Source of the DNA: Ensifer adhaerens
GTDB lineage: Bacteria > Pseudomonadota > Alphaproteobacteria > Rhizobiales > Rhizobiaceae
Assembly (NCBI RefSeq): GCF_020035535.1
Contig: NZ_CP083351.1
Span: 248,001-312,000 of the forward strand
Reading direction: 5' to 3'
Length of the DNA stretch: 64,000 nt
Shown: piece by piece, positions 527 to 57,207 of the stretch
Position numbering within the stretch: the stretch's first letter is position 1
Layout of the letters: every line of letters begins with the position of its first letter
Notes under the pieces: model-generated
The model's input: the letters and a program-made list of their open reading frames with translations, nothing else
What the model was told of the DNA's origin: nothing
The model's database searches: none
Program-made: the position numbers and the translations under genes

Positions 527-551
527 GGAACTTTCGAATGATCTGTTCGTT
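527..551 (+). promoter_or_regulatory. Sigma-EcfG (RpoE2) type promoter
   Basis: GGAAC, 16 bp, CGTT: exact match to the alphaproteobacterial general-stress promoter consensus. The next downstream element is the terminated RNA candidate at 558-630; no open frame with a ribosome site follows. Confidence 0.7.
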
Positions 552-557
552 TCAAAA

Positions 558-630
558 TGCCAATGATCCAGATCCCTCCGGATCAAGGTAGGGCCCCATC
601 AACGCACCCGGCGGAGGTGGGGCCTTTTTG
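558..630 (+). ncRNA. Candidate stress-induced small RNA with anti-SD loop
   Basis: Starts about 7 nt after a perfect EcfG -10 element. The first hairpin has stem GATCC/GGATC (571-584) and loop CTCC, so CCCTCC is exposed. It is followed by an intrinsic terminator: GGCCCCA (592-598) pairs with TGGGGCC (618-624), then TTTTT. A close relative lies at 52482-52562, sharing ATCCCTCC(A/G)GATCAAGGT. Anti-SD loops are typical of alphaproteobacterial RNAs that pair with ribosome binding sites (cuckoo RNA and alpha-r14 type); membership in one of those families is inference. Confidence 0.55.
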
Positions 631-830
631 CGAGGTTCTCCTTGATCCACGATCGCCTGATCGAGCGCCGTCACATGGGTCGTCGGTTCCCGGCGAGAAG
701 AAGTCAGCGCCAAATGCGGCATGGGCGCCATGCGCTGCTTATCGCAGTTGCCGCAGTACCGGTCTGCCGATCGAGGGTGGGGGTCGTCGAGTAAAAATGG
801 CTGCCGATTGCCTGGGAAAAAACGCATACA

Positions 831-8337: not shown

Positions 8338-8365
8338 TGTTCGGCTCCTTTTCAACGCGAAGGGA

Positions 8366-8390
8366 ACCGGCATTCATCAGTTATGTTCCA
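8366..8390 (-). promoter_or_regulatory. Sigma-EcfG type promoter
   Basis: Minus strand GGAAC, 16 bp, GGTT, 29 bp upstream of the ATG at 8337. Confidence 0.65.
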
Positions 8391-40472: not shown

Positions 40473-43400
40473 ATGAACATCGATCTTTCCCGCCGCAGTT
40501 TCCTGAAGCTCGCTGGCGCAGGAGCCGCGGCCACCACGATCGGGGCCATGGGCTTCGGAGCGGCCGAGGCCGCAACAGCCGCCCATGTGCGTGCCTTCAA
40601 ACTCGCAAGCACCACCGAGACCCGCAACGTCTGCACCTACTGTTCGGTCGCCTGCGGCATCCTGATGTATTCGAAGGGTGACCTTTCCGCCGGCGAGAAG
40701 GCGGAACTCATCCATATCGAGGGTGATGCCGATCATCCGACCAACCGCGGGACGCTCTGTCCCAAGGGCGCGGCGCTCAAGGACTTCGTGAAGTCCGAGA
40801 CCCGCGCCACGAAGCCACGTCACCGCGCCCCGGGCGCCGACACCTGGCAGGATATCTCCTGGGAAGATGCCTTCGACAAGATTGCCCGGGCGATCAAGGA
40901 CGACCGCGACAAGAACTTCATCGAGAAGAATGCGGCCGGGGTCACCGTCAACCGCTGGACGACGATGGGCTTCCTTGCAGCGTCGGGCGGCACCAACGAG
41001 ACGGGATGGCTGACCTACAAGACCGTCCGGTCCTTAGGCGTCGTCGGCTTCGACAACCAGGCACGCGTCTGACACGGCCCCACGGTAGCCAGTTTGGCTC
41101 CAACATTTGGCCGCGGCGCAATGACGAACGCCTGGACCGACATCAAGAACACCGACCTCGTCATCGTTATGGGTGGCAACGCGGCGGAAGCACATCCCTG
41201 CGGCTTCAAATGGGTGACGGAAGCCAAGCACCATCGCGGCGCCCGGCTGATCGTCGTCGATCCGCGCTTCAACCGCACGGCATCGGTTGCCGATGTCTAC
41301 GCCCCGATCCGTCCTGGCTCCGATATCGCCTTCCTGATGGGTGCGATCCGCTACTGCATCGAAAACGACAGGGTCCAGTGGGATTACGTGAAGAACTATA
41401 CCAACGCGACCTATCTGGTGAACGACGCGTTTGGATGGTCTGATGGTCTCTTTACCGGCTACGACGAGGAAAAACGCGACTACGACCGCACCGCCTGGGA
41501 ATACCAGCTGAACGAGGACGGGACGGTGAAAACCGATCCGACGCTCACCGACCCGCGCTGCGTCTGGAATCTTTTAAAGCAGCATGTCGCGGCCTACACG
41601 CCGGAGTTCGTGGAAAACATCTGCGGCACGCCCAAGGATCGCTACCTGAAGATCTGCGAAATGATCGGTGCGACGTCCGCCCGCGACAAGGTGATGACCT
41701 CGCTCTACGCGCTCGGCTGGACGCAGCATTCGAAAGGCGCCCAGAACATTCGCGGCATGGCGATGCTTCAGCTGATCCTCGGCAATGTCGGCTTGCCCGG
41801 TGGCGGGGTCAACGCGCTTCGCGGCCATTCCAACATCCAGGGGCTGACCGACATCGGCCTGCTTTCCAACTCCCTGCCGGGTTACATGAACCTCGCGACG
41901 GAAAAGGAGACGGATTACACGACCTACATGTCGACGCGCGGCAACAAGCCGCTCGTTCCTGGCCAGACGAGCTACTGGCAGAACACACCCAAATTCATGG
42001 TCAGCTTCCTGAAGGCCATGTGGGGCAGCGCCGCGACACGCGAAAACGACTGGGGCTTCGACTGGTTGCCGAAGCTCGATGTACCCTACTACGACATCCT
42101 CAGAATGTTCGACATGATGAGCCGCGGCGAAGTGAACCTCTACTTCTGCCAAGGCTTCAACCCGCTTCTGTCCTTCCCCAATCGGGCGAAGCTGACCGAG
42201 GGTCTGTCGAAGCTGAAACTGCTCGTGACAATCGACCCGCTGCAGACCGAGACGGCGCATTTCTGGGAAAACCACGGTATCTACAACCAGGTGGATTCCG
42301 CCAAGATCATGACGGAGGTCTTGCAACTCCCCGCGACCTGCTTTGCCGAGGACGAGGGCGCCACTGTCAATTCGGGCCGGTGGCTGCAATGGCACTGGCC
42401 AGGGGCGACACCACCGGGCGATGCCAAGCACGACACCTGGATCATGGCCAACATCTTCCTGCGCGTGCGTGAACTCTACCGCAAGGAAGGCGGGGTCTGT
42501 CCCGAGCCTATCCTGAACCTTGCCTGGGATTACAAGGACCCTTACGAGCCGGAACCGGCCGAGCTAGCCCAGGAGATGAACGGACGGGCGCTCCAAACGC
42601 TCTATGATCCGACCGATCCGACGAAGGTGCTGGTCGAGGCCGGCAAGCTCTTGCCCAACTTCGGCGTGATGCGTGACGACGGCTCCACCATGTCGGGCTG
42701 CTGGATCTATACCGGCTCCTGGACGGAGGACGGCAACATGATGGCCCGGCGCGACAATAGCGATCCGGGCGATGTCGGCACCTTCCTCAAATGGACCTTC
42801 GCCTGGCCGGCCAATCGACGCATCCTCTACAATCGTGCCTCCTGCGACCTTGAGGGCAAGCCCTGGGATCCGGCGCGCAAACTCATCGAATGGAACGGCG
42901 AACGTTGGGCGGGCTTCGATGTGCCCGACATCGCGGTGACGGCAAAGCCCGAGGCAGTGATGCCATTCATCATGACGGCCGAGGGAACCGCCCGTCTCTT
43001 TGCCCGCAAGCTGATGCGGGACGGACCCTTCCCCACACACATGGAGCCATTCGAAAGCCCGGTCGAAAATCCGTTCAACGCCAAGCTTCGCGGCAATCCC
43101 GTCGCGCGCATCTTCCCCGGCGACCTGCAACAGCTGGGCACGAGTGGCGACTTCCCCTTCGTTGCCACGTCCTATCGCCTCACCGAGCATTTCCACTTCT
43201 GGACCAAGCACAGCCGTGTCAACGCCGTGCTGCAGCCGGAATTCTTCGTGGAAATCAGCGAGGAACTGGCGGCCGAGCGAGGCATCACCAAGGGCGGGCG
43301 GGTACGCTTGTGGAGCGCGCGCGGCGAGGTCTGGGCGAAGGCCGTGGTGACGAAGCGCATTCGCCCGCTGATCTGCAACGGCAAACCGGTTCATGTGGTC

Positions 43401-47621: not shown

Positions 47622-49522
47622 TCGTCGGAACGGCAGGGCATATCGACCACGGCAAGACGGCGCTGGTGAAGGCTCTGACCGGCACGGATGCCGACCGCCT
47701 TGCCGAGGAGAAAGCCCGCGGCATCACCATCGACCTTGGTTTTGCCTATGCCGATCTCGGCGGCGGTACGGTCACCGGCTTCGTCGACGTGCCGGGTCAC
47801 GAACGGCTGATCCACACCATGCTTGCCGGCGCCGGCGGCATCGATTTCGCGTTGCTGGTGGTCGCCGCCGACGATGGAATGATGCCGCAGACGCGCGAAC
47901 ACCTCGCGATCCTCGACCTGCTCGATATTACCAGAGGTATCGTCGCGCTCACCAAGGCCGATCTCGCCGGGCCTGAGCGGCGCGCGGAGGTGACAGCCGA
48001 AATCCAAGCAACGCTTGCTGGCACCGGTTTGGCAATGGCACCGATCCTTGCCGTCTCCGCCCTTACCGGCGAGGGTATTGAGGCCCTGCGCGCCGGCCTC
48101 GCGGCCGCCGAGGCAGAAACAGCCGCCCGCAACGAAGCCGGCCTGCTGCGCTTTGCCGTCGATCGCAGTTTCACGCTTGCAGGCGCCGGCACGGTGGTGA
48201 CCGGCATGGTGCTCGGCGGCCGTGCGAAGCCCGACGATATGATCATCGTCAGCCCGACCGGGCTGACCGCCCGCATACGCGGCATCCATGCGCAGAACCG
48301 CAAGGCCGCAGAGGGGCTTGCCGGCCAACGTTGCGCGCTGAACCTTGCCGGCGAACGGGTGACGAAGGACGCGATCCGGCGCGGCGACGTGGTTCTCGCG
48401 CCGCCACTGCACGCCCCGACGGACCGGATCGACGCGGAGGTTCGCGTGCTGGCCTCGGAGGCGAAGTCGATCGGCTCCTGGTTTCCCGTTCGCCTGCACA
48501 GCCACGCGGCAGAAGTTGGTGCGCGGATCGTACCTCTTGCCGGCCCGCTCGGTCCCGGAACACAAGGCCTGGTACAGCTGGTCCTCGACCGTCCCATCGC
48601 CGCGACCATCGCCGACCGCTTCGTCCTGCGCGACACCTCGGCCAGCCGGACGATCGGCGGCGGCCGCTTTCTCGACCTGCGCCCGCCGGCGCGAAAGCGA
48701 GGCACGCCGGAGCGCCTGGCCTTGCTTGCCGCCTCTGGCAACGAGGACCCGGCGGTGGCGCTTTCCGCCCTGTCCGATCTCGCGCCGATCGATCTTGCGG
48801 GTTTCCTTCGCGACCGTGGCCTGGGCGAGGACGCCCTTTCCGGGCTCCTGAAGGCCGCCGGGGCGACGACCATCGGCGACCATGCGCTCTCGCGCGCAGC
48901 GGTGGACGGATTGCGGGCGAACCTGACAGACACCCTCGCAGCCTTCCACGCAGAAAACCCCGAGCTTGCCGGCATCGGTCGCGAGCGGCTACGGCTCCTT
49001 CTCAAACCGCGCCTGCCGACGACAAGCTTCCTCGCATTCCTCAAAGACGAAGCGGCTGCAGGTCAAATCGTGCTCGACGGCGCCTTCCTGCGCCTGCCGG
49101 GTCACGAGGTCCGACTGTCGCCGGCGGACGAAGACCTGTGGCAGCGGATCCATCCGCATCTCCTCGACGACAGCCGCTTCCGGCCACCGCGCGTGCGCGA
49201 TTTCACAGTCCTTCTCAATGCAGAGGAGCGCGACATAAGGCGCGTGATGAAACTCGCCCAGCGGCTCGGGCAGACCCACGAGATCGCGCACGACCATTTC
49301 TTCGCCCGCGCGGTCGTGGAGGAGATGGCAGCCATCGTGCTCGAGGTGGCAGCCCAGGCGGACGATGGCTGGTTCACCGCGCCCGACTTTCGCGACCGGG
49401 TGCACAATGGCCGCAAGGTCGCCATCGAAATCCTCGATTTCTACGACCGGCTCGGCCTGACCTTGCGCAGGGGAGATATGCGTCGCATAAATCCCCATCG
49501 CAGCGACCTATTTGCGCGCTGA
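47618..49522 (+). CDS. selB: Selenocysteine-specific elongation factor
   Basis: 634 residues. G domain motifs: [11 protein letters not shown] (G1) near 4-14, [10 protein letters not shown] (G3) near 57 and TKAD (G4) near 113. Domains II-III follow ([20 protein letters not shown]), then four winged helices from about 380 that bind the SECIS RNA, ending near [10 protein letters not shown]. Delivers Sec-tRNA-Sec to the ribosome at UGA. Overlaps selA by four bases and ends the fdo-sel operon. Confidence 0.96.
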
Positions 49523-49780
49523 GGCCGGGTCTTGCCGCCTCGCGCGCAGTATCTCGCAATTGCCTTGGTTCGGCGTCGGCGGAGAGCCTTTGAAGGTGCG
49601 AGGCACCGAGCCGGCCCAATGCCAGCGGCCAGCCGTGGGGCCGCCGGTCTCCTTTCGGATGCGTCCGATGTTGCCGATACCGTCAAAGCCGAGCCAATTG
49701 AAATCCGTTGGTGGGTCGTGCGCGTCCAGTTCGTTCATGGCTTAGGATGTGATTGCGGTCCGGAGAAATTCAAGTCGGGC

Positions 49781-49805
49781 GGAACCTCTTTGCAAATCGC
49801 TGGTT
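49781..49805 (+). promoter_or_regulatory. Sigma-EcfG type promoter
   Basis: GGAAC, 16 bp, GGTT. Start predicted near 49812, the first base of a terminated RNA candidate. It is the first of the promoters packed into 49.8-53 kb. Confidence 0.65.
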
Positions 49806-49811
49806 CGTGGC

Positions 49812-49893
49812 CCGGGCTCTGAGGACTTGCCCAATCAGAGCCCTTCATGACGACGACACCTTGGCCCCGCCCTTCATTGGTCGGGGCCTTTTT
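49812..49893 (+). ncRNA. Candidate EcfG-driven small RNA
   Basis: About 82 nt. A 5' hairpin pairs GGGCTCTG with CAGAGCCC (49819-49848 region); the 3' end is an intrinsic terminator, GGCCCCG (49863-49869) with CGGGGCC (49882-49888) then TTTTT. No open frame with a ribosome site fits. A second promoter follows three bases after the terminator, giving a tandem arrangement. Confidence 0.55.
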
Positions 49894-49895
49894 CT

Positions 49896-49920
49896 GGAAC
49901 TATCTGGCTTCATTTTGGTT
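49896..49920 (+). promoter_or_regulatory. Sigma-EcfG type promoter, immediately after a terminator
   Basis: GGAAC, 16 bp, GGTT, three bases after the T-run of the preceding RNA. Serves the RNA at 49927-50045. Confidence 0.65.
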
Positions 49921-49926
49921 AATTAG

Positions 49927-50045
49927 ATGCCTCTGATCTACACCCCGCTTAATCAGAGGTTTCAGGCTCATCTAACGTCCATATGGATCGAGCCGTGTAT
50001 GGCAAAATGCCGAATGGCCTCGACGATCTGCCGAGGCCATTTTTC
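49927..50045 (+). ncRNA. Candidate EcfG-driven small RNA, second of a tandem pair
   Basis: About 119 nt with three hairpins in a row: CCTCTGAT with AATCAGAGG, GGCTC with GAGCC, and the terminator ATGGCCTCG with CGAGGCCAT followed by TTTT. No credible open frame. The sequence differs from the first RNA of the pair, so the two are not simple duplicates. Confidence 0.55.
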
Positions 50046-50142
50046 GCTAAAATCAGCGGCGCTACGCAAGAAACGCGCAACGTTTCCTGTGGACGGCAGT
50101 TGTGACGCGCCGTCGACCTTCCGTTACTAAGGGCCAACGGTC

Positions 50143-50183
50143 GGGCTCCTGTTCGAGCCTCCTCTGCTATCCAACAGGAGCCC
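50143..50183. other. Strong 11-bp hairpin with CCTCCTC loop
   Basis: GGGCTCCTGTT and its exact complement enclose a 19-nt loop containing CCTCCTC, as in alphaproteobacterial anti-SD RNAs. No EcfG promoter and no T-run lie next to it, so its transcription unit is unknown. Confidence 0.4.
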
Positions 50184-50365
50184 CTCGCGCGGCTGCGACC
50201 TCTCAGGCTCGCTTGTCGCCTTCGGATAAGGGGGTGGGAGTGCTTCGCCAAGAAAGTTGCCTTATCGCGAGGACGCCCTAAATACCGAACGCATTGTTGG
50301 GTGGTTTTAAGGGCGCGTCCCAACGACTGGAAGATAATTCGCGCCCCAAGGCAGGAGGTCGCGCG

Positions 50366-50758
50366 ATGAATTCCACGACCAATCCGAAGGCACTTCTCCC
50401 CCACGAAATGAATGAGGTTGATCGGATCTTCAATGAGATCCTTAGTGAGCAAGGGCTCCTACGCGGTTGTGAGGAAGCAGAAGCGATTGCGGCTCGCATA
50501 CTCGGCCACCACCAGCGAGGCGTTCGAGATGTCGAGACCATAAAGTTCGCGATTGGATTAAGCTTAAGGTCTGGCGCCAAGGAAATCGCAGGGGCGGCCC
50601 GCGAGGCGACGATTTCGATCATGAATGTTGGGGGCGGTCCAGAGAGTCAAATCAGTCCCGAAGTCCTCGAAATGCTTCAGCGCACCTTCGAGCGTGTGTC
50701 CATCTGGTGCAGGATCCCGCGATATGGAAAACGAGCCGCCGGCTCGCGCAATATCTGA
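50366..50758 (+). CDS. Hypothetical protein of the stress-RNA cluster
   Basis: 130 residues. ATG with AGGAGG eight bases upstream. The first 80 residues (LPHEMNEVDRIFNEILSEQG, CEEAEAIAARILGHHQRGVR) are helical and polar; the C-terminal 40 (FERVSIWCRIPRYGKRAAGS) are basic and look less protein-like, so the frame might be extended past the true end by a shift. No family recognised, no membrane segment. Confidence 0.55.
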   Translation: MNSTTNPKALLPHEMNEVDRIFNEILSEQGLLRGCEEAEAIAARILGHHQRGVRDVETIKFAIGLSLRSGAKEIAGAAREATISIMNVGGGPESQISPEVLEMLQRTFERVSIWCRIPRYGKRAAGSRNI

Positions 50759-50938
50759 CCGAGAGCTTTCGAATCGGAAGGTATGATGAAAAAGCGTTGT
50801 CGGAAATCGCGGTGTTGCTTGAGCAGCATCCTGACGATCGCTGTGAAATCTAGTGCCCCGTGCAAAGAGGCTCTCCCGCGGAGGGAAAGCGACCGGCTGC
50901 CGCGCCGCATTTTTTTGGCGCAAAAACACTCTTCCTCA

Positions 50939-50963
50939 GGAACGGACTTCGATCTGTCGCGTT
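50939..50963 (+). promoter_or_regulatory. Sigma-EcfG type promoter
   Basis: GGAAC, 16 bp, CGTT: exact consensus. The -10 ends only nine bases before the ATG at 50973. Confidence 0.7.
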
Positions 50964-50972
50964 TTGTTTCGC

Positions 50973-51167
50973 ATGGAAAATCTACGGCCGACACCCACAG
51001 CAGCCGTCCGGCAATATGCGGACATTTACAGCCTCGAAGAATTCGCAGTCGCCTACGATCTAAGCGCCACACGCGCGAACGACCTGTACCGGCGATTTGG
51101 CCCAACACGCGCGAAGCTCGACACGTTAATGGCGGCGCTTCATCACTTGGCGTCCTGGCGACCATAG
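50973..51167 (+). CDS. DUF3606-like small protein, probably leaderless
   Basis: 64 residues. The core YSLEEFAVAYDLSATRANDL followed by YRRFGPTRAKLDTLM resembles DUF3606 proteins (a short helix-turn-helix-like domain with a final RAKL-D element) found widely in alphaproteobacteria. No ribosome site precedes the ATG, and the EcfG start site should fall within about five bases of it, so the mRNA is expected to be leaderless. A longer frame upstream exists but would cross the promoter. Confidence 0.6.
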   Translation: MENLRPTPTAAVRQYADIYSLEEFAVAYDLSATRANDLYRRFGPTRAKLDTLMAALHHLASWRP

Positions 51168-51245
51168 GTCTTTCCGCAGGTCGATGTCGCGGGCGGCGCC
51201 GACGCCGGTTTTTCTCGTGCGAGGCTCACAAGGAGAAGGCACCCC

Positions 51246-51482
51246 ATGGGCAACGACGATGACGATACCTACACACCGGCAGAAGAGCGCAGCGGCGTAG
51301 GCAAAGCCGCACAGGTCGCGGCGGAAGCTGTAAAGACAGAGGTAAGTGCCGTGGTTGGAGCGGCAGCAGAACATCCGCACACCGTCTCCGCCGTGGGTGT
51401 ACTGTTAGGCGCTCTCGCCTTTACTATCGGCTACGTGGTGGGTCGAAATTCGGTCGACACGAGGCGAGGTTCTAGGTGGTGA
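51246..51482 (+). CDS. Small membrane stress protein, paralogue of 14970-15218
   Basis: 78 residues, AAGGAG before the ATG. An acidic start (MGNDDDDTYTPAEE), a helical segment (KAAQVAAEAVKTEVSAVVGA), one membrane helix (VGVLLGALAFTIGYVVG) and RNSVDTRRG. It shares HP-x-T, GALAFTIGYV and SVD with the 82-residue protein at 15218-14970. No EcfG promoter was found directly upstream; it may be read from the one at 50939. Confidence 0.75.
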   Translation: MGNDDDDTYTPAEERSGVGKAAQVAAEAVKTEVSAVVGAAAEHPHTVSAVGVLLGALAFTIGYVVGRNSVDTRRGSRW

Positions 51483-51545
51483 GCGGACGTGTGTGGCCGA
51501 CAGCCCTCTGTCGGATCCTGCACGAAGGCGCGCCCTAGCCTGAGA

Positions 51546-51569
51546 AAAGAAAAAAGGCCCTCCGGGGCC
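51546..51569 (-). terminator. Possible minus-strand intrinsic terminator
   Basis: On the minus strand a GGCCC/GGGCC hairpin is followed by TTTTTTC. No minus-strand gene is seen to the right within 600 bp other than the CsbD-like one, which ends at 52187, so its transcript could stop here. Confidence 0.4.
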
Positions 51570-51630
51570 AAGTTTTGTGGAGTTTAGGCGGTCGTTAACT
51601 GCCGGTTAGGCCGAAAGTTTCTCGCTTTTC

Positions 51631-51666
51631 GGCCCCATTTGTCGCCTTTTGGGGCCGCTGTTTTGC
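51631..51666 (+). terminator. Hairpin GGCCCCA/TGGGGCC, possible terminator
   Basis: Seven-base-pair stem (51631-51637 with 51650-51656), then GCTGTTTTG. The loop TTTGTCGCCTTT resembles the loop of the terminator at 53010-53037. Likely ends transcription from the 51246 gene before the next promoter. Confidence 0.45.
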
Positions 51667-51670
51667 CCAA

Positions 51671-51695
51671 GGAACCTCTGGCGCCCTCGCGCGTT
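51671..51695 (+). promoter_or_regulatory. Sigma-EcfG type promoter
   Basis: GGAAC, 16 bp, CGTT: exact consensus. The following terminated stretch has no open frame. Confidence 0.65.
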
Positions 51696-51701
51696 TACTG
51701 G

Positions 51702-51820
51702 CCGCCTACGATCTGCCCCCCGCGGATCTAGGCCGAGCTCCATCGATAGTCCCCGGAATGGAGCCGATTGGCTAGCCGTCCTCGGGCCTCGGTCTCCCCC
51801 GGCCGGGGCCGCTTCTTTCT
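51702..51820 (+). ncRNA. Candidate EcfG-driven small RNA with C-rich terminator loop
   Basis: About 118 nt. The terminator pairs GGCCTCGG (51785-51792) with CCGGGGCC (51803-51810; one G-U pair) around the loop TCTCCCCCGG and is followed by CTTCTTTCT. The C-rich loop could pair with G-rich ribosome sites. The next promoter begins at 51848. Confidence 0.45.
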
Positions 51821-51847
51821 AGGTGCTCTGATTTAGCACTCACTCAA

Positions 51848-51872
51848 GGAACACCTCTCGGCCCACCGCGTT
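51848..51872 (+). promoter_or_regulatory. Sigma-EcfG type promoter
   Basis: GGAAC, 16 bp, CGTT: exact consensus, 24 bp before the ATG at 51897. Confidence 0.7.
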
Positions 51873-51896
51873 GGAACTTCATAAGGAGTTCCGGTG

Positions 51897-52169
51897 ATGA
51901 TTTTGATTCCGCCCGATTTTGACTGCCGAGGAGGCGAAGGCTCTGATGCTTCTGGCCTGATCGCTTCCATCAAGTACGCCTTGGCTGCCGAGGCGCCGTT
52001 CGATACACAAGGCCTCTGCTTCAGGGCGCTTGGAAACTGTGTCGTAATCGAGGGTCAAGTTGCCGAGCCCGACGGCGACGAGTTCGTTCGACGCGTGGCT
52101 GAAGATATTGCAGGGCCCGACCGTGTTGTGGTGCGAGTTGGTTGTCCGCGGCGAGCCCCGCAGTCGTGA
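51897..52169 (+). CDS. BON-like small protein, predicted general-stress gene
   Basis: 90 residues. AAGGAG lies before the ATG at 51897 (a GTG at 51894 is also in frame). The core LCFRALGNCVVIEGQVAEPD followed by VRRVAEDIAGPDRVVVRVG fits the beta-alpha-beta pattern of BON domains, which bind phospholipid or anchor stress proteins in the periplasm, but there is no signal peptide, so this may be a cytoplasmic relative. A perfect EcfG promoter precedes it. Confidence 0.6.
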   Translation: MILIPPDFDCRGGEGSDASGLIASIKYALAAEAPFDTQGLCFRALGNCVVIEGQVAEPDGDEFVRRVAEDIAGPDRVVVRVGCPRRAPQS

Positions 52170-52186
52170 AAACGTGCCTACCAGGT

Positions 52187-52345
52187 CTATCGTGAGTACC
52201 AGTTATCAATATCTTTGCGAACCTGGTTTTTCTCCAGGCCGTACCGCTCTTGAATCTTCCCTTCGAGCTGATCACGTCGGCCGGCGATCTCATCGAAACT
52301 CTCGTCGGTTTGCTTCCAGTTACCTTTAACGCGATCTCAGTCCAT
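52187..52345 (-). pseudogene. CsbD-like stress gene with UGA at codon 3
   Basis: 53 codons on the minus strand. ATG at 52345 follows an ideal AAGGAGG. The product would be MD-UGA-DRVKGNWKQTDESFDE, then IAGRRDQLEGKIQERYG and VRKDIDNWYSR. CsbD proteins usually begin MxWxxxxGNWKQ, so the UGA stands where Trp is expected (TGG to TGA). The family's middle segment (about ten residues after NWKQ) is also missing. A GGAAC-N16-GATT promoter lies upstream. Expression would need readthrough or a correct base at codon 3. Nonsense mutation is the simplest reading. Confidence 0.7.
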
Positions 52346-52380
52346 AGTGACCTCCTTGCGCTCCTCTTGTATCTGCCCCA

Positions 52381-52405
52381 AATCCCCACGGCGGAGCTTA
52401 GTTCC
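52381..52405 (-). promoter_or_regulatory. Sigma-EcfG type promoter of the CsbD-like gene
   Basis: Minus strand GGAAC, 16 bp, GATT. The -35 is exact and the TT of the -10 is kept; the start would be about 30 nt before the ATG. Confidence 0.5.
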
Positions 52406-52450
52406 TGGACGGCCCTCGGACCTGGTCTACCTCGATTTTTTTCATTCTGG

Positions 52451-52475
52451 AGAACCTTTCATCCAGATCGGGGTT
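52451..52475 (+). promoter_or_regulatory. Near-consensus sigma-EcfG type promoter
   Basis: AGAAC, 16 bp, GGTT; one mismatch in the -35. It leads into the RNA at 52482, the relative of the one at 558 that has a perfect promoter. Confidence 0.5.
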
Positions 52476-52481
52476 TTAGGT

Positions 52482-52562
52482 CTTGCTGATGATCTCGGAT
52501 CCCTCCAGATCAAGGTGGAGGAGCCCCAAAGCCGTTTCTACTTTGCGATGGGGCTCTTCTTC
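52482..52562 (+). ncRNA. Candidate small RNA with anti-SD loop, relative of 558-630
   Basis: About 80 nt. GATC/GATC pairs around the loop CCTCCA; then GAGCCCCA (52521-52528) pairs with TGGGGCTC (52549-52556) before TTCTTC. It shares the 5' string ATCCCTCC(A/G)GATCAAGGT with the RNA at 558-630, 52 kb away, while the terminators differ, as expected of a diverged RNA pair with a conserved seed. Confidence 0.55.
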
Positions 52563-52614
52563 AAAGCCCTGCTTCTCGGGGATGCACCTCTGAGGTCGTC
52601 ACGGAGGAACACCA

Positions 52615-52881
52615 ATGCCCAAAAGCAAAAAGCGGGTGATGACCCGGAGTGAGGTTCCGGTTTTCGTGAACGAGGTGATCGAGGCAGGCTGCAACATTTG
52701 CGCCGTGGGTCACGACAGTTACGTGATCGGCGACATTGCAGACCAAGACAGGGCGAAAGACGAAATCGACAGAATAGCGGAGAAGTACGGCGACCGTGAC
52801 CCTTTGAAGTGGCAGATTGTCGCCTATCTCTGGTCGATCGGCCGATACATAGAGCTGGCGTCGGAAGCCACGCGGCACTGA
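52615..52881 (+). CDS. Small hypothetical protein (88 aa)
   Basis: CGGAGG nine bases before the ATG. Sequence: basic start (MPKSKKRVMTRSEVPVFVNE), then VIEAGCNICAVGHDSYVIGD and EIDRIAEKYGDRDPLKWQIV, ending in a helical IGRYIELASEA. Two Cys in GCNIC could bind metal but have no partners. Soluble, no signal. Located right after the RNA terminator, so either read through from it or from its own unseen promoter. Unknown family. Confidence 0.65.
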   Translation: MPKSKKRVMTRSEVPVFVNEVIEAGCNICAVGHDSYVIGDIADQDRAKDEIDRIAEKYGDRDPLKWQIVAYLWSIGRYIELASEATRH

Positions 52882-52926
52882 CAGGAGGCTGGTAAGGCGA
52901 AGGATGTGAAAATCAAAAGCCAGCAC

Positions 52927-52951
52927 GGAACCATTTGACGAGCGAGCGGTT
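52927..52951 (+). promoter_or_regulatory. Sigma-EcfG type promoter
   Basis: GGAAC, 16 bp, GGTT. Start near 52958. Confidence 0.65.
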
Positions 52952-52957
52952 AAAAAG

Positions 52958-53044
52958 TGGGGCTCCCGCGTTTCTCGTTTCCGCTAGGGTCCCCGCGCAC
53001 ATACCTTTCATGGCCCCTTGGTCGCCTTTGGGGCCATTTCTTTT
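52958..53044 (+). ncRNA. Candidate EcfG-driven small RNA
   Basis: About 87 nt. Starts with an A-run; GGGG and CCCC blocks (52969 and 52991 regions) can pair. The terminator is ATGGCCCC (53010-53017) with GGGGCCAT (53030-53037), then TTCTTTT. No open frame with a ribosome site. Confidence 0.55.
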
Positions 53045-53488
53045 AGCGCCGCAGGCAACTGCCCTCGCGCTGGCCCGCTTCGATCCGTTGCAGTATCTCC
53101 CGCAGACGCGGCTATCGACTGAAAGACTGTTTAGCGTGTTCTCCACAGCGCATCGAGGTGGCAGCCTCGGCCGCCTGCTTCTCGACGCCAGTTATGCGGA
53201 GCTCGTGGTTGTCGAGCCCCGTGTATGGGCGGCATAGTCATCGTCGGCGGCGTTGACGTTGTCGGCAATTTCATGGTCGCCGCGGGCGACGTTGCCAGGC
53301 CTTCAGCGGCGAAGTGAAATGCTCCTTGTCGAGATCAGAGGTTCGATAGGCGCCGGCACTGCAAATGCGCGATGATACGCGGCATTTACATCGGCTGGAG
53401 CCATTCCAGCGGTAGGCGATAGCTCATCTTGAAAATTCCTTTGAGTGGACCAGGTTGTGGGGGGCTCCGAAAACAACGGGAGGCAGCA
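53045..53488. other. No gene recognised
   Basis: Short frames only. The sequence is GC-rich and simple in places (GTCGTCGGCGGCGTTGACG) but not a defined repeat. Confidence 0.45.
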
Positions 53489-53728
53489 GTGGATCACTCC
53501 GACGGCTTTGAGATCCGGTGCCAAGCATGTGGCGCCCGAGAGCACCTGACGTTCTCAGAAATGGAGATGCGAGATCACGTTCAGTGCCGGGTCTACGGGA
53601 CAGTCCGTAACATGCGCAAGGAAGACATCCTGGAGACTTGCCGTGACGCAGTTAGGTTGACGGGCGGGGGCTATGAAGATTTCATGGGTGAGAATTCGCG
53701 TCCGCAAGGCAACCCTAAATTAACTTGA
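53489..53728 (+). CDS. Possible zinc-ribbon-like small protein
   Basis: 79 residues from GTG 53489, with GGGAGG upstream. FEIRCQACGAREHLTFSEME followed by HVQCRVYGTVRN suggests a zinc ribbon in which the second Cys pair has become C-x-x-G (CRVYG), losing one ligand. The gene ends 55 bp before a strong terminator. It may be a decaying copy of a larger family. Confidence in coding is moderate. Confidence 0.5.
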   Translation: MDHSDGFEIRCQACGAREHLTFSEMEMRDHVQCRVYGTVRNMRKEDILETCRDAVRLTGGGYEDFMGENSRPQGNPKLT

Positions 53729-53780
53729 TGGAATGCAATTTACGGTCGGTCGCCATTGTCCCTGCACTCACAACTGGCAC

Positions 53781-53816
53781 CCAAAACCGCAGCGCCCACC
53801 CACGGCTGCGGTTTTG
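53781..53816. terminator. Bidirectional intrinsic terminator
   Basis: Ten-base-pair stem AAAACCGCAG (53783-53792) with CTGCGGTTTT (53806-53815); A- and T-runs on both sides allow termination in either direction. Confidence 0.65.
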
Positions 53817-54063
53817 CCAATTGGTCAGTTCGCCGCCCAAAAAAAGTCCCTGCCGGTCCACCGGCAGAGGTTGGTTCGGTATGCCGGATCGCTTGAGAAG
53901 CGTTCGTAGCGCGCAAGCTCGAAAGACGATCCTGCAGAGAGAATAAGGTCGCAATACCTTGAAACAAGGCAACTCAATAGATGATGCCAGGGCGTTCCTG
54001 CCTCACGCACACGTTTCACGAAAGCGAAACTGCCTACGCTCAATTGAGTGACAGAGGCGAGTT

Positions 54064-54249
54064 ATGATCCCAGACGAGATTACCAGGAAAGCGTGGAGCC
54101 TTGCAGCCCGTCACCTTGCGCGCGGGCAACGCGACCCGACCAAGATGGTTGCTGAGGCTATTTCCCTGGAACGGCAACGATGTTTGGAAATCGCCACTGA
54201 ATGTTGCGGCGAAAACAGCGACGTCGCTCGGGAGATACGGGAACGGTGA
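54064..54249 (+). CDS. Small hypothetical protein (61 aa)
   Basis: MIPDEITRKAWSLAARHLAR at the start; the rest (KMVAEAISLERQRCLEIATE) is helical and acidic, with two Cys in ECCGEN. GAGGCGAG precedes the ATG. Short soluble proteins of this form are common beside phage or stress genes in rhizobia. No family can be named. Confidence 0.5.
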   Translation: MIPDEITRKAWSLAARHLARGQRDPTKMVAEAISLERQRCLEIATECCGENSDVAREIRER

Positions 54250-54311
54250 AAATAGCGATGGCCAGACGGGCCGCCTCGATGTTAGATGCGGGTAAGCTGC
54301 GAGAGAGCCCG

Positions 54312-54416
54312 ATGAACGGACAAACGAAGCGCACCCGGGACCTGGTACTCATCGTTGTCGTGACTGGCGTCGCCCTTATAGTGGTTGCGGGCGCTTTGCT
54401 TTTTTTCGTCATTTGA
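54312..54416 (+). CDS. Small single-helix membrane protein (34 aa)
   Basis: ATG 54312 after GAGAG. Basic start (MNGQTKRTRDL) then one membrane helix (VLIVVVTGVALIVVAGALLF). A start at 54246 (GTG) would add 22 polar residues. Tiny bitopic proteins of this kind often have regulatory roles, but nothing can be assigned. Confidence 0.5.
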   Translation: MNGQTKRTRDLVLIVVVTGVALIVVAGALLFFVI

Positions 54417-54723
54417 CGAGTGGCGCGCGGTTCGTCGGCAACCTTGTCATCGGCCCCCTTCCGGTCGGGTGCCAACGTTTCCACTTTAGACTAGGCGTGC
54501 CTAGGCGTTGATTTCCTGAGCTATCAGGATCGCGGTCGCTGCCCACCGAAGCGGCGCGCACTTCCGGTCCCATTCGTGCGCATCGTTACGGCGGTAGTCG
54601 GACCAACCCGCACCTTGTAGGTTACCGGCTGGTCGTGTTCGGGGCATCGACAAACTCTATTGCCATGCCCTCACAATAGCCCCCGGTCCCGACGACCTTG
54701 CCCATTGCCTGAAACGCACTCGC
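54417..54723. other. No gene recognised
   Basis: Upstream of the recombinase remnant; the missing N-terminal part of the recombinase is not present here. Confidence 0.45.
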
Positions 54724-55432
54724 TTGGCCTACCAAGCTTTGACTTGGGAATTGATAGCGAAGAATCCTGCAGTTTTGAGTAAGGCTCCGAAGCAGGAGCG
54801 CAAGCCGATGCTGGCGTACGATGCCTCTCAGACAGCAAAGTTGCTGCAGGTCGAGGGAAAGCGCATCCATATTCCGGTGCCGTTGGCGGTAATGTGCGGC
54901 TTGAAACCAGGAGACATCGCAGCACTTCGGTGGAATCATATTGACTGGGCCGGCGCGCGCGCCGCTATTATCGAGAGTGTAGAGCAGACCGTCGAAGGCG
55001 TTCACTACAAGGAGCCGAAGTCTGGCCGGAGCCGCGCAGTTGATCTGTCACCATCTGTTATCCTCAAGGCACATCGGGCTAGACAGGCAGAAGGCTTACT
55101 CGCAATCGGCATCAGAAGCGCTGAAGACATGTTCATCGTGAGTGACCATGAAGGCGCCCCAGCCGCGGGCACTGACAGACGCATGGCTACGCTTGCTGGA
55201 AGGGCTGGACCTCCCGCGCATCCGTTTCCATGATCTCCGCCACACTCACGCCGCCCAACTCCTATCTGCTGGGGGTGCATCCAAGATCGCTAGCGAACGC
55301 TTGGGGCACTCGATCGGCATTACCCTCGACCTCTACTCACACGTGATGCCGGGAATGCAGGCGAATGCCGCGGTACAGATTGACGAAATGATCCGCCGTG
55401 CGGTAGGGGATTCTAGCGAGAGCAAAGGGTAG
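54724..55432 (+). pseudogene. Broken tyrosine recombinase beside selC
   Basis: The first frame (GLKPGDIAALRWNHIDW with the catalytic Arg; KSGRSRAVDLSP) and the second (LPRIRFHDLRHTHAAQLL with HxxR; ERLGHSIGITLDLYSH with the Tyr) belong to one phage-type integrase. The frame changes near 55145-55165, where one frame reads DHEGAPAAG and the other APQPRALTDAW. The N-terminal arm-binding and core-binding domains are missing. It ends about 70 bp before tRNA-Sec, a common integration target, but lies on the 5' side of the tRNA, not the usual 3' side. Confidence 0.8.
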
Positions 55433-55500
55433 CAAACCGGTAGGAAAAGGCTCCTCGGAACATTGTCGGTTTGGAAGAAATGACAATGAAATCAAAAACT

Positions 55501-55596
55501 GGAAGGGAATCGTCTCCGGTGGGACGGCCGGACTTCAAATCCGGTTGGGGCAGCGAGCCTGTCCCGGGTGGGTTCGACCCCCACTCCCCTCCGCCA
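55501..55596 (+). tRNA. selC: tRNA-Sec (UCA anticodon)
   Basis: 96 nt including an encoded GCCA end. The anticodon TCA is at 55535-55537 in the loop CTTCAAA on a GCCGGA/TCCGGT-type stem; a long extra arm follows (TTGGGGCAGCGAGCCTGTCCC) and the T loop is GTTCGAC. The 8-bp acceptor stem pairs GGAAGGGA with TCCCCTCC with one A-C mismatch. The sequence follows the bacterial selC pattern closely. Required with selA, selB and selD for FdoG. Its position, 6 kb from selB beyond the stress-RNA cluster and the recombinase remnant, is unusual. Confidence 0.95.
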
Positions 55597-56112
55597 TCGA
55601 CTGGTGTGTGCAGGACGTCCAAGCTAAGATCGTTTTTTTTCGAACTAGGCTAAGTGTAGCGCGTAAGTCACTCCATCGGCCGCTGAACGCGCATCTCGCA
55701 GAGTCCTGCGCAGAAACCTAGGGACGACACTTTGAATCACCATTGAACATACAAGTTGGTAACAGCGGAGGGAGGCAAGCCACGCCATCGTTCCCGATCT
55801 CCCTCTGACCACAATTTCGGCCACTGGCTCTTCACGTGTTAACGATCAACGAGTTTCGGGGAGAGGGCTTCGATCCGCATCGCGAGGCTATTGCCGTGAT
55901 CATTGGCGATCGTCCCGCGATGGTTGTTGTTCGGAACCGGGCTTTGGTCACACGGCATGGCCACAGCCGTCGCCCAGGGTGGCCCGCTCCACGGAAGGCT
56001 GACAACGCGCGCCGGGACGCTGTTCATGTCAAGGAGAGATCGGAGGCCGTTGCTGGGACCCGGGCGATGCCGACGGCTGTTGTCGGCGCAAAGGGGGGCG
56101 TGGCCGCAGAGC
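55597..56112. other. No gene recognised
   Basis: Region 3' of tRNA-Sec. An open frame at 55836-56396 runs antisense into the nucleotidyltransferase gene and has no family likeness. No repeat of the tRNA 3' end was noticed. Confidence 0.45.
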
Positions 56113-57207
56113 TCATTTGGAGCGATCATCAGCTCTCAACTTCTCCAGGTCAGGCATCTTCGATCCGAGCGCCTTATCGAGTGCCTTCACACCTTTGGCT
56201 GACAGCCTCAAGAGGCCGTTGCAAAGGCCTTCCTTCCAAGAATCGCCGCGATCCCACGCCTCCGCCCAAGCATCGACCAATTCGTATTCGTGGCGGGTCT
56301 CCACCAGGGCTTCGAATAGTAAGGAGGCCTGCACCAGATCCTTGTCCGATTTCACGCGTCCTAGCGTGTCAGGGAGCCTTCTGGAGGCTACGATAAGCTT
56401 ATGGACGGCATACCGCTCGGGAGCCGGGACTAGGACGTTCACGCCTTCGCGGAAGAGAAGCACCGTGCGGACAGGCTCGTAGATCAGGAAGTCGAGGAAC
56501 CTGAGGTTTTCTGCCGACGCGCCGCCGAGGGCGGGCATGGGAGACGGCTTGCCCGTGTATTCGTCCGATCCCCGGTTTCCAGTCAGGAACTCCACTCGGT
56601 AGCCCCTCGCGTTCTGAAAGGCGACCACCTTGGCTTTGTCCGCCTGGTGTGGCACGGCTCGGAAATTGGGATCGACCGACTGGAGGATATTTAGAACGGG
56701 CGGAAGGCTGTCCTGCACCCCGGCCGAGATCGCGAAGTCCTGAGCGAAATCCGCGTCGCCCGTCTGCATCGCAGACGAGGGCAGTCGGACGCCTAGCATC
56801 CCCGCATAGGTGCTGAATGCTACTGACCCAATCAGGACCGCACGGAGCCGGAACAATCCGGCGTCGGCAAGCGCCTTCGTAATATCGCCGGCGAAGGTGT
56901 CGGGACCGGGGAGACCGGCACGACGCAGAGTGCTTACCATGCGCCTCCGCTCCCGGAGATCGTCCTTGATCTCCTTGTGTGCCTTCACCCGTGCCGTGAT
57001 CTCTTCGTCACTTTCTGGACCGACATAATTTCGCTTGTATTTGCCCTGTCCATCTGGGAGATCAAAATACCAGTAATTACGATCCTTGACTGTTACGGTC
57101 ACGAACCACCCTTCCATCGGAAAGTCTGCCAAAAACTGACCGTCGAGCGTCCGCTGCGTCAGCTCGGCGAACATCGTCCGATAGCTGATGTCGATCTCTC
57201 TCATCAT
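56113..57207 (-). CDS. Nucleotidyltransferase-fold protein (NTP_transf_8-like)
   Basis: 364 residues. The nucleotidyltransferase signature is LIGSVAFSTYAG (Gly-Ser near 127-128) followed by GDADFAQDF (Asp near 151 and 153); a third acidic residue may be in the YRVEFLTGN stretch. This matches NTP_transf_8, a family of unknown role related to MNT/AbiEii-type folds. The N-terminal 100 residues carry a DRNYWYFDLPDG element and a charged helix. GAAAGG precedes the ATG pair. The gene has an array of TTATAAC dyads 85-160 bp upstream, also found at the left edge of the window. Confidence 0.8.
   Translation of the reverse strand: MMREIDISYRTMFAELTQRTLDGQFLADFPMEGWFVTVTVKDRNYWYFDLPDGQGKYKRNYVGPESDEEITARVKAHKEIKDDLRERRRMVSTLRRAGLPGPDTFAGDITKALADAGLFRLRAVLIGSVAFSTYAGMLGVRLPSSAMQTGDADFAQDFAISAGVQDSLPPVLNILQSVDPNFRAVPHQADKAKVVAFQNARGYRVEFLTGNRGSDEYTGKPSPMPALGGASAENLRFLDFLIYEPVRTVLLFREGVNVLVPAPERYAVHKLIVASRRLPDTLGRVKSDKDLVQASLLFEALVETRHEYELVDAWAEAWDRGDSWKEGLCNGLLRLSAKGVKALDKALGSKMPDLEKLRADDRSK

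Follow-up and report, generated by a model that had tools for sequence, protein, structure and literature searches.

The window analysed here, a 64,000-nucleotide stretch of DNA, carries a cluster of promoters, predicted small RNAs and small genes on a plasmid (replicon C3) of the soil bacterium Ensifer adhaerens. The cluster lies within an insertion between selB and tRNA-Sec (Table 1): by blastn, E. adhaerens Casida A (L202) is collinear as far as the stop codon of selB, and the match picks up again with the tRNA. The site is empty, with the same junction, in three E. adhaerens strains (Casida A, M8 and Corn53), and Shinella sp. PSBB067 has a 47-nt gap at the corresponding junction. Close to the right border, the frame at 55142-55432 matches Pfam Phage_integrase (E 9.8e-8) and is annotated as a recombinase; the overlapping frame before it is tied to the integrase solely by aligning in line with the integrase piece, as it likewise does in L201. 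No word of at least 10 nt, direct or inverted, is common to the two flanking stretches compared. The precise insertion and the relatives with an empty site support the view that the cluster region is an accessory island.

Table 1. Positions, within the window, of the insertion and the features discussed in the text.
Feature	Position	Strand	Description
Insertion with cluster	49525..55500	.	5.98 kb; borders +/- ~2 nt
Promoter P1	49781..49805	+	GGAAC-N16-GGTT
RNA1 (predicted)	49811..49893	+	hairpin 49814-49843; terminator hairpin 49863-49888; z -3.66
Promoter P2	49896..49920	+	GGAAC-N16-GGTT
RNA2 (predicted)	49926..50048	+	hairpin with loop containing ACACCCCGC; second hairpin; terminator 50012-50042; z -4.88
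orf130	50366..50758	+	small protein; no Pfam family
Promoter of orf64	50939..50963	+	exact EcfG-type site
orf64	50973..51167	+	small protein; window's copy without a Pfam family; aligned with relatives
orf78	51246..51482	+	small protein; hydrophobic stretch (from translation); nothing above Pfam cut-off
Promoter P3	51671..51695	+	GGAAC-N16-CGTT
RNA3 (predicted)	51701..51820	+	three hairpins (CCCCC and AUAGUCCC in loops) and a terminator; Ensifer family member; z -1.83
Promoter of orf91	51848..51872	+	exact EcfG-type site
orf91	51894..52169	+	small protein, weakly BON-like
CsbD-like pseudogene	52187..52345	-	codon 3 is an in-frame TGA; in relatives, annotated as CsbD family protein
Promoter of CsbD-like frame	52381..52405	-	GGAAC-N16-GATT, starting at 52405
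Promoter P4 (before RNA4)	52451..52475	+	AGAAC-N16-GGTT, one mismatch
RNA4 (predicted)	52482..52566	+	GATC-arm hairpin, CCCUCC at tip (partly paired in predicted fold); terminator 52517-52560; z -3.48
orf88	52615..52881	+	small protein; its family has numerous copies in the genus
Promoter P5	52927..52951	+	GGAAC-N16-GGTT
RNA5 (predicted)	52957..53044	+	single hairpin; GGCCCC terminator 53010-53037; z -2.50
Tyrosine integrase remnant	54724..55432	+	frames 55142-55432 and, before it, overlapping 54724-55233
tRNA-Sec	55500..55596	+	right border of the insertion

EcfG-type promoters and small genes of the insertion

Promoters of the EcfG regulon take the form GGAAC, a spacer of 16-17 and (C/G)(G/A)TT. 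Seven sites between 49781 and 52951 have this form exactly (GGAAC-N16-[CG][GA]TT), all with a spacer of 16; an earlier, sequence-only reading had counted eight matches to GGAAC-N16-nnTT, but the eighth, P4, begins AGAAC and is one mismatch off. Other spacings from 12 to 20 give no match in 49500-54500, and a spacing of 21 gives one. Across the 8.13-Mb genome, GGAAC-N16-SGTT occurs 220 times against 160 for the reversed pattern, so most genome-wide matches are background; the 3171 bp of the cluster nevertheless hold six such strict sites against 0.086 expected from genome-wide density, and when 220 sites were placed at random 500 times, no stretch of this size received more than four. The clustering proposed in the earlier reading is thus borne out. 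Patterns that join a promoter to a terminator gave 39 matches in 16 genomes against 7 when reversed, and 21 against 9; the genome studied here has 11 such matches, four of them in the cluster.

Several of the small genes are themselves linked to these promoters. An EcfG-type site lies 20-23 nt upstream of orf91 in all seven copies and 5-71 nt upstream of orf64 in six of seven matches, the window's own included in both counts. By contrast, none of 19 tblastn matches to orf130 (own and partial ones included) has one within 200 nt upstream, and among the 36 tblastn matches to orf88 in the fetched loci, a count that takes in the window's own match as well as partial and split ones, only four do. 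A crude N/S ratio of 0.10-0.32 (six comparisons) places orf91, as judged from its alignments, under purifying selection; for orf88, aligned with its relatives, the ratio is 0.30-0.43 (six comparisons). The stress-gene families first suggested for these frames survive unevenly: DUF3606 was found in neither Pfam nor NCBIfam searches; BON is matched by two of seven orf91 relatives (best E 0.017) but not by the window's copy; and the CsbD label agrees with the annotation of relatives, although the window's frame is broken.

Predicted RNAs and their relatives

As the sequence-only reading proposed, five promoters (P1-P5) lead into foldable, terminator-ended predicted RNAs, here of 83-123 nt with z-scores from -1.83 to -4.88. 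Terminator-like sites number 16 on both strands of 48500-54500 against 6.8 in shuffles; the scan lists those of RNA3 and RNA5, and the terminators of RNA1, RNA2 and RNA4 rest on predicted folds. The distance from promoter to terminator, once offered as an argument for its regularity, is not very regular (~57, 91, 89, 41 and 58 nt for RNA1 to RNA5). No open frame of at least 40 codons, the only size listed, falls inside any of the RNAs, as had been claimed, but RNAs of this length could hardly contain one and several such frames run across them. Runs of at least four consecutive unpaired C occur in 33 of 51 RNAs against 11.9 in mononucleotide shuffles, the 51 having been gathered by promoter and GGCC terminator rather than at random. 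Taken together, several cluster promoters appear to drive small regulatory RNAs.

RNA3 is the best conserved of the five, though its z-score makes its fold by itself unexceptional. It belongs to an Ensifer C-loop family described by two covariance models, scoring 40.8 bits with R1, from whose seed it is absent, and 117.7 bits with R2, which was trained on it. Among 16 genomes of the genus, R2 finds the family in nine and R1 in eleven, with up to 17 diverged copies per genome that score at least 30 bits, many of which are clustered on accessory replicons. Elsewhere in 199 genomes of the wider bacterial family it is weakly matched, R1 finding five places beyond the genus, all with weak scores; these counts are lower bounds, obtained under stricter filters and with three genomes of the genus among those drawn.

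Linkage of this family to the promoter can be judged from 71 places in the genus found with models that contain no promoter, 70 of which were checked. GGAAC-N16-NGTT stands near the start in 21 of 21 seeds, which is no test because the seeds were picked by promoter, and in 18 of 49 non-seed matches; other spacings from 12 to 20 give 0-3 each. Without nine matches already known from pattern searches, the promoter is present in 9 of 40 at spacing 16 against 0-3 at the others, and in eight of those nine its position is identical, 29-31 nt before the start of the match. A count over a narrower stretch, with match starts that are off at some places, gave 15 of 49 non-seeds and 20 of 21 seeds. In the remaining 31 of 49, some of them scoring 66-75 bits, a perfect promoter at spacing 16 is missing, and weak covariance matches may be false.

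Pairing in the family is retained through double changes: 18 of 24 pairs have compensatory changes, in 63 cells against 17.6 when shuffled, in an alignment fitted to the model. A five-sequence alignment of the RNA3 subfamily contains no compensatory change; that of subfamily A has 12 compensatory cells against 4.9, yet 46 in 500 shuffles have at least as many pairs. When 12 RNAs were aligned jointly, the first hairpin fell out of register, and the subfamilies were then treated separately; for the RNAs with a single hairpin (type C) the alignment was too poor for modelling.

RNA4 scores weakly with the C-loop models (11.9 bits) and has a family of its own, with four relatives making five members. 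At the position of P4 these relatives all read GGAAC, with a spacing of 16 in three and 17 in one. Their CCCUCC loop is not an independent finding because the search pattern required it; when the loop was left free, nine loci matched and CCCUCC occurred in the same five (L162, L185 and L187 were read as short rows, two of them covered by L051 and L141). The other RNAs have at best faint ties to the C-loop models. RNA2 scores 20.6 bits with R1 and 24.6 with R2; RNA5, whose loop is C-poor, reaches only 13.2 bits with R1. RNA1 has a match of 30.9 bits that is misregistered, the R2 match beginning upstream of the promoter, and none of the candidates scored across 60 other genomes is related to it at the DNA level. 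A conserved 5' hairpin was found for neither RNA1 nor RNA5, and both are weakly supported as small RNAs. Conservation of the hairpins in relatives, one of the two conditions on which the earlier reading had staked its proposal, holds for RNA3 and RNA4 and weakly for RNA2, but not for RNA1 and RNA5.

Comparison with described RNAs

Rfam holds a model of alpha-r14, which with NfeR1 forms one family with RFMSmelA075 and RFMSmelA099. At the gathering score neither the cluster nor 16 related loci match any Rfam family, alpha-r14 included; permissive E-values on the cluster yielded chance-like families only, mostly from eukaryotes and viruses. The Ensifer C-loop family and its clusters were found neither in Rfam nor by literature search, and at least two of the cluster RNAs appear to belong to repeated families missing from Rfam. 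RFMSmelA075 and RFMSmelA099 (PMC3927594) and alpha-r14 with NfeR1 (PMC7143759) are described as multi-copy RNAs with at least three hairpins, whose stems vary while their anti-Shine-Dalgarno loops are conserved. Multiple copies, multiple hairpins, variable stems and anti-Shine-Dalgarno loops are common to both sets, but the RFMSmelA075 loops are given as CCUCCUCCC (PMC3927594) where the tips here read CCCCC, UCCC or CCCUCC, and the NfeR1 promoter is given as sigma-70 (PMC7143759) where those here are EcfG-type. The pattern of CCUCCUCCC in every loop is absent from the loops read here.

The closest likeness is to GsrN of Caulobacter, described as an RNA of ~100 nt with an EcfG-type promoter, an exposed C-rich 5' loop and a terminator, which acts on katG mRNA by pairing with its G-rich start (PMC5869019). 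Compared through that description rather than through the GsrN sequence, RNA2 and RNA3 share the promoter and the exposed C-rich 5' loop; RNA4 does so in part (a UCCC loop in its fold), RNA1 has CCC, and RNA5 lacks such a loop. As described, GsrN is a single gene that in most of its family, though not in C. crescentus, lies close to the core stress locus (PMC5869019), whereas here many diverged copies are clustered on accessory DNA. That position, usual for GsrN though not strict, is not shared by the cluster: NepR scores above cut-off at two places in the same genome, both on C1, and the cluster lies on C3.

In S. meliloti, RpoE2 motifs are reported upstream of 23 sRNAs, with microarray support for eight (PMC3616915). 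One of its RNAs, SmelB008, is listed with an RpoE2 promoter (PMC7143759) and resembles the RNAs here in its UCCCCC loop and terminator hairpin. EcfG-linked small RNAs as a class are known from GsrN and these RpoE2-linked sRNAs; the family described here is absent from Rfam. Under strict filters, in a search of pSymA and pSymB, R1 matches nothing on pSymA and two places on pSymB, both weakly: one of 19.5 bits that has a perfect promoter and one of 16.4 bits that lacks it. SmelB126, the multi-copy RpoE2 sRNA of that species, shares the promoter but otherwise looks unrelated.

A probable stress-controlled set of C-loop RNAs and the alternatives

We consider it probable, at roughly 0.7, that the cluster encodes general-stress small RNAs that act through C-rich loops on G-rich mRNA leaders in the manner of GsrN. 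The insertion would then be an accessory cluster of general-stress genes. The PhyR-NepR partner switch releases EcfG under stress; in the model we infer, the switch of the host chromosome would free EcfG, RNA polymerase would start at P1-P5 to make short terminator-ended RNAs, and orf64 and orf91 mRNAs would arise from their own EcfG-type promoters. The C-rich tips (CCCC(C), CCCUCC), displayed on stable hairpins, would base-pair with several mRNAs, at G-rich leaders or Shine-Dalgarno sites, and so tune their translation, as GsrN does. Transcription, dependence on EcfG, pairing and targets belong to this model; computation shows the promoters and their linkage, the folds, the insertion and, for RNA3 and RNA4, conservation and membership in a family.

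The hairpins could instead be mainly 5' leaders or attenuators, in which a terminator on an EcfG-started transcript decides expression of orf88, orf91 or orf130. RNA4 does end ~50 nt upstream of orf88, which has promoters 172-174 nt upstream in L134, L142 and L162, and RNA3 precedes orf91, as family matches do in L207, L208 and L210. Yet orf91 has its own nearby promoter in every copy, further promoter-RNA units separate the RNA4 relative from orf88 in L162, 32 of 36 orf88 matches are without such a promoter within 200 nt, and in G009 an RNA lies downstream of orf91 (as does a weak one, of 25.4 bits, in G005); we regard this explanation as unlikely. Palindromic repeats without a regulatory role, beside which the promoter match would be incidental, would account for the many hairpin-rich copies, for copy numbers that are uneven between species (with 30 bits as the lower limit, the largest contig has none in G000 and G009, though three in G001) and for the many matches without a promoter; stem pairing kept by double changes in diverged copies and promoter linkage at one spacing and one position make this very unlikely. 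Least probable are short mRNAs for unannotated peptides: frames of at least 40 codons overlap the RNAs but extend past them at one or other end, and frame-breaking gaps outnumber other gaps in the RNA alignments by 571:133 and 45:10 (all sequence pairs).

The tight run of EcfG-type promoters and predicted small RNAs within the insertion suggests that acquired DNA adds RNA regulators to the stress response. More tentatively, and at somewhat less than even odds, Ensifer plasmids may carry a mobile, modular stress repertoire in which EcfG promoter-RNA-terminator and promoter-small gene cassettes recombine into clusters, so that horizontally acquired C-loop riboregulators, an amplified and diversified GsrN, are plugged into the chromosomal general stress response. 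The EcfG-dedicated island proposed at the outset as an unrecognised unit is indeed an accessory insertion without an Rfam family, but the genus has several such recombined clusters, and this one is not a single dedicated unit. If the wider reading holds, the genus would show how a chromosomal stress response is rewired by plasmids through RNA; EcfG-linked C-loop RNAs have so far been described mostly singly, and a family defined by promoter, fold and loop offers a testable entry to the role of rhizobial RpoE2-linked sRNAs. LhrC of Listeria, as described, is likewise a multi-copy stress-induced sRNA (PMC4132741), but in another organism and under another regulator, and serves as an analogy only. 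Elsewhere in the host (L211), an RNA preceded by a promoter and showing the loops AGCCCCCA and ACUCCCCGA lies ~1.4 kb from a NepR gene, matching the arrangement given for Rhizobiaceae in the GsrN description (PMC5869019).

Clustering of EcfG-type promoters

When the whole window was scanned for EcfG-type (general stress) promoters with the pattern GGAAC-Nx-[CG][GA]TT at spacings of 12 to 21, a spacing of 16 returned 14 matches and each other spacing 0-3; between 49500 and 54500, seven matches have a spacing of 16 and one a spacing of 21. The sequence-only reading had counted eight GGAAC-N16 promoters in this cluster; seven are exact, but the eighth, which precedes RNA4, reads AGAAC. Genome-wide, the SGTT form of the motif matches 220 times versus 160 for the reversed pattern, so that single matches mean little. 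Unlike these, the six SGTT-form sites found in the 3171 bp of the cluster are meaningful: 0.086 would be expected, and more than four in such a stretch was never reached in 500 random placements of sites. Elsewhere in the window, two overlapping EcfG-type motifs lie on opposite strands at 8363-8389.

Coordinates of RNAs and associated features (window positions unless another locus is named)
Feature	Position	Strand	Remarks
RNA1	49811-49893	+	
RNA2	49926-50048	+	
RNA3	51701-51820	+	
RNA4	52482-52566	+	
RNA5	52957-53044	+	
EcfG promoter-RNA unit, RNA4 type	527-640	+	CCCUCC tip; ~49 kb from cluster, same plasmid
CsbD-like frame	52187-52345	-	EcfG-type promoter; in-frame TGA at codon 3; genome has tRNA-Sec
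Insertion between selB and tRNA-Sec	49525-55500		5.98 kb; from comparison with empty sites
GsrN-like RNA	locus L211, 3024 downwards; replicon C1 near 2.81 Mb	-	loops AGCCCCCA and ACUCCCCGA; near NepR gene

Folds and conservation of the RNAs

A 5' hairpin followed by a terminator is predicted for each of the five candidate small RNAs of the cluster, RNA1 to RNA5 (fold z-scores -1.8 to -4.9). Searching 16 Ensifer-genus genomes for the promoter joined to a GGCCYC...RGGCC terminator gave 39 places for the long form of the pattern versus 7 when reversed, and 21 versus 9 for the short form; the own genome holds 7 + 4 matches, four of them being RNA1, RNA2, RNA3 and RNA5. Among 51 distinct RNAs gathered by script from fetched loci, 33 carry at least four unpaired C in a row, versus 11.9 in mononucleotide shuffles. 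Subfamily A (16 members, none in the cluster) has three hairpins with loops CCCCC and CCCUCC, subfamily B consists of RNA3 and its relatives, RNA1, RNA5 and others are single-hairpin forms, and RNA4 belongs to a further type. One locus fetched from a relative (L162, 1471-2260) places four EcfG-type promoter-RNA units of differing types in tandem within ~800 nt, followed by a copy of the small frame orf88; two of its four promoters have a spacing of 17.

Subfamily A (16 sequences) supplied the covariance model R1, and subfamily B (5 sequences) the model R2. At E 0.01 or better, R1 matches 11 and R2 matches 9 of the 16 genus genomes, and together they mark 71 distinct places, 53 at 30 bits or more. 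In a survey of 199 family genomes, evenly drawn and strictly filtered, R2 matched two, both of the genus Ensifer, and R1 seven, five of these weakly (25.6-30.2 bits) and outside the genus. RNA3 is matched by R1 at 40.8 bits although it lies outside the training set, which suggests that subfamilies A and B are related, although the two have the terminator in common.

Promoter linkage was counted at 70 of the 71 places, one at a contig edge being excluded. Of the seeds, 21/21 have a perfect GGAAC-N16-NGTT close to their start, as do 18/49 non-seeds (20/21 and 15/49 in a narrower first count); at any one of the other spacings between 12 and 20, the non-seeds give 0-3 matches. Among the 40 non-seeds that promoter-pattern searches had missed, 9 have the promoter, versus 0-3 at other spacings, and eight of these promoters lie 29-31 nt before the model match. 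Compensatory changes affect 18 of 24 pairs among 26 aligned R2 matches (63 cells, compared with 17.6 after shuffling and 6-12 in slid controls), in an alignment that was fitted to the structure and in which the RNA1 row is out of register, lying across the RNA1 promoter. The subfamily A seed alignment shows 12 compensatory cells versus 4.9 and 5 pairs versus 3.2; the five-sequence subfamily B seed shows none.

Model scores are lower for RNA2 (20.6 bits with R1, 24.6 with R2), RNA5 (13.2 bits) and RNA4 (11.9 bits). The DNA spanning RNA1 and RNA2 (49740-50291) had no match in 60 other genomes among the at most four candidates scored per genome. Support for RNA4 is its own five-member family: RNA4, a second copy in the window and three in relatives. 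This family was first found with a pattern that required CCCUCC and did not require a promoter; when any loop sequence was allowed, the pattern matched nine loci, CCCUCC occurring in the same five. GGAAC lies upstream of all four relatives of RNA4 (spacing 16 in three, 17 in one). The fold predicted for RNA4 leaves half of CCCUCC unpaired.

The selB/tRNA-Sec insertion and its small genes

The selB stop codon is directly joined to tRNA-Sec in E. adhaerens Casida A, M8 and Corn53, and the gap is 47 nt in Shinella sp. PSBB067. A search for repeats flanking the insertion found none. An integrase remnant has its end adjoining the tRNA in the window. Ensifer sp. PDNC004 has a comparable remnant ahead of tRNA-Sec, and selB is absent from the 18 kb inspected there. 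The window's replicon, C3, accounts for 0.74 Mb of an 8.13-Mb genome in three contigs, and 49530-55600 recurs without a difference on plasmid p1 of E. adhaerens W2-A. From selB to tRNA-Sec, the PLSDB table lists an integrase and six hypothetical proteins; it is silent on the cluster RNAs because its format omits RNA genes and pseudogenes. Relatives carry the same modules in other orders and places. The selenocysteine locus itself is plasmid-borne, with SECIS_3 (41067-41125) and tRNA-Sec (55500-55596) identified by Rfam alongside fdhE, selA and selB; beside the tRNA, 56113-57207 (- strand) is annotated as a GSU2403-family nucleotidyltransferase-fold protein.

None of the small frames scanned between the RNAs received a confident family name from Pfam or NCBIfam. 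Counting matches with own copies included, an EcfG promoter lies 20-23 nt upstream of orf91 in 7/7 and 5-71 nt upstream of orf64 in 6/7, and accompanies 4/12 CsbD-like frames, 4/36 orf88 and 0/19 orf130 matches. Nonsynonymous/synonymous ratios are low for orf91 (0.10-0.32) and orf88 (0.30-0.43), as crude uncorrected counts over six comparisons each. The CsbD-like frame of the cluster is most likely a pseudogene.

Relation to known stress RNAs

EcfG-linked small RNAs are already known as a class: PMC3616915 reports RpoE2 motifs at 23 S. meliloti sRNAs, eight with microarray support. Rfam gives no family for the cluster RNAs or in 16 related loci, and a brief search of open-licence literature found no description of the Ensifer RNA family or of such clusters.

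PMC5869019 describes pairing of a C-rich loop of Caulobacter GsrN with the G-rich katG leader, and GsrN-like RNAs close to the stress locus in Rhizobiaceae; according to PMC7143759, the alpha-r14 member NfeR1 uses anti-Shine-Dalgarno loops to silence mRNAs. We infer that the cluster RNAs, putatively transcribed under EcfG, may act likewise, in which case they would pair with mRNAs as GsrN and NfeR1 do. The host genome has two copies of NepR, part of the PhyR-NepR-EcfG partner switch, and an RNA that has a promoter in front, two C-rich loops and a terminator is encoded ~1.4 kb from one of them, in a position like that which PMC5869019 gives for Rhizobiaceae GsrN-like RNAs. Neither R1 nor R2 matches this RNA, and its kinship with the clustered RNAs is therefore one of architecture alone. 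R1 also scores weakly (19.5 bits) on S. meliloti pSymB (1402634-1402731, - strand), at a place that a perfect EcfG promoter immediately precedes and that may correspond to an already known RpoE2 sRNA.
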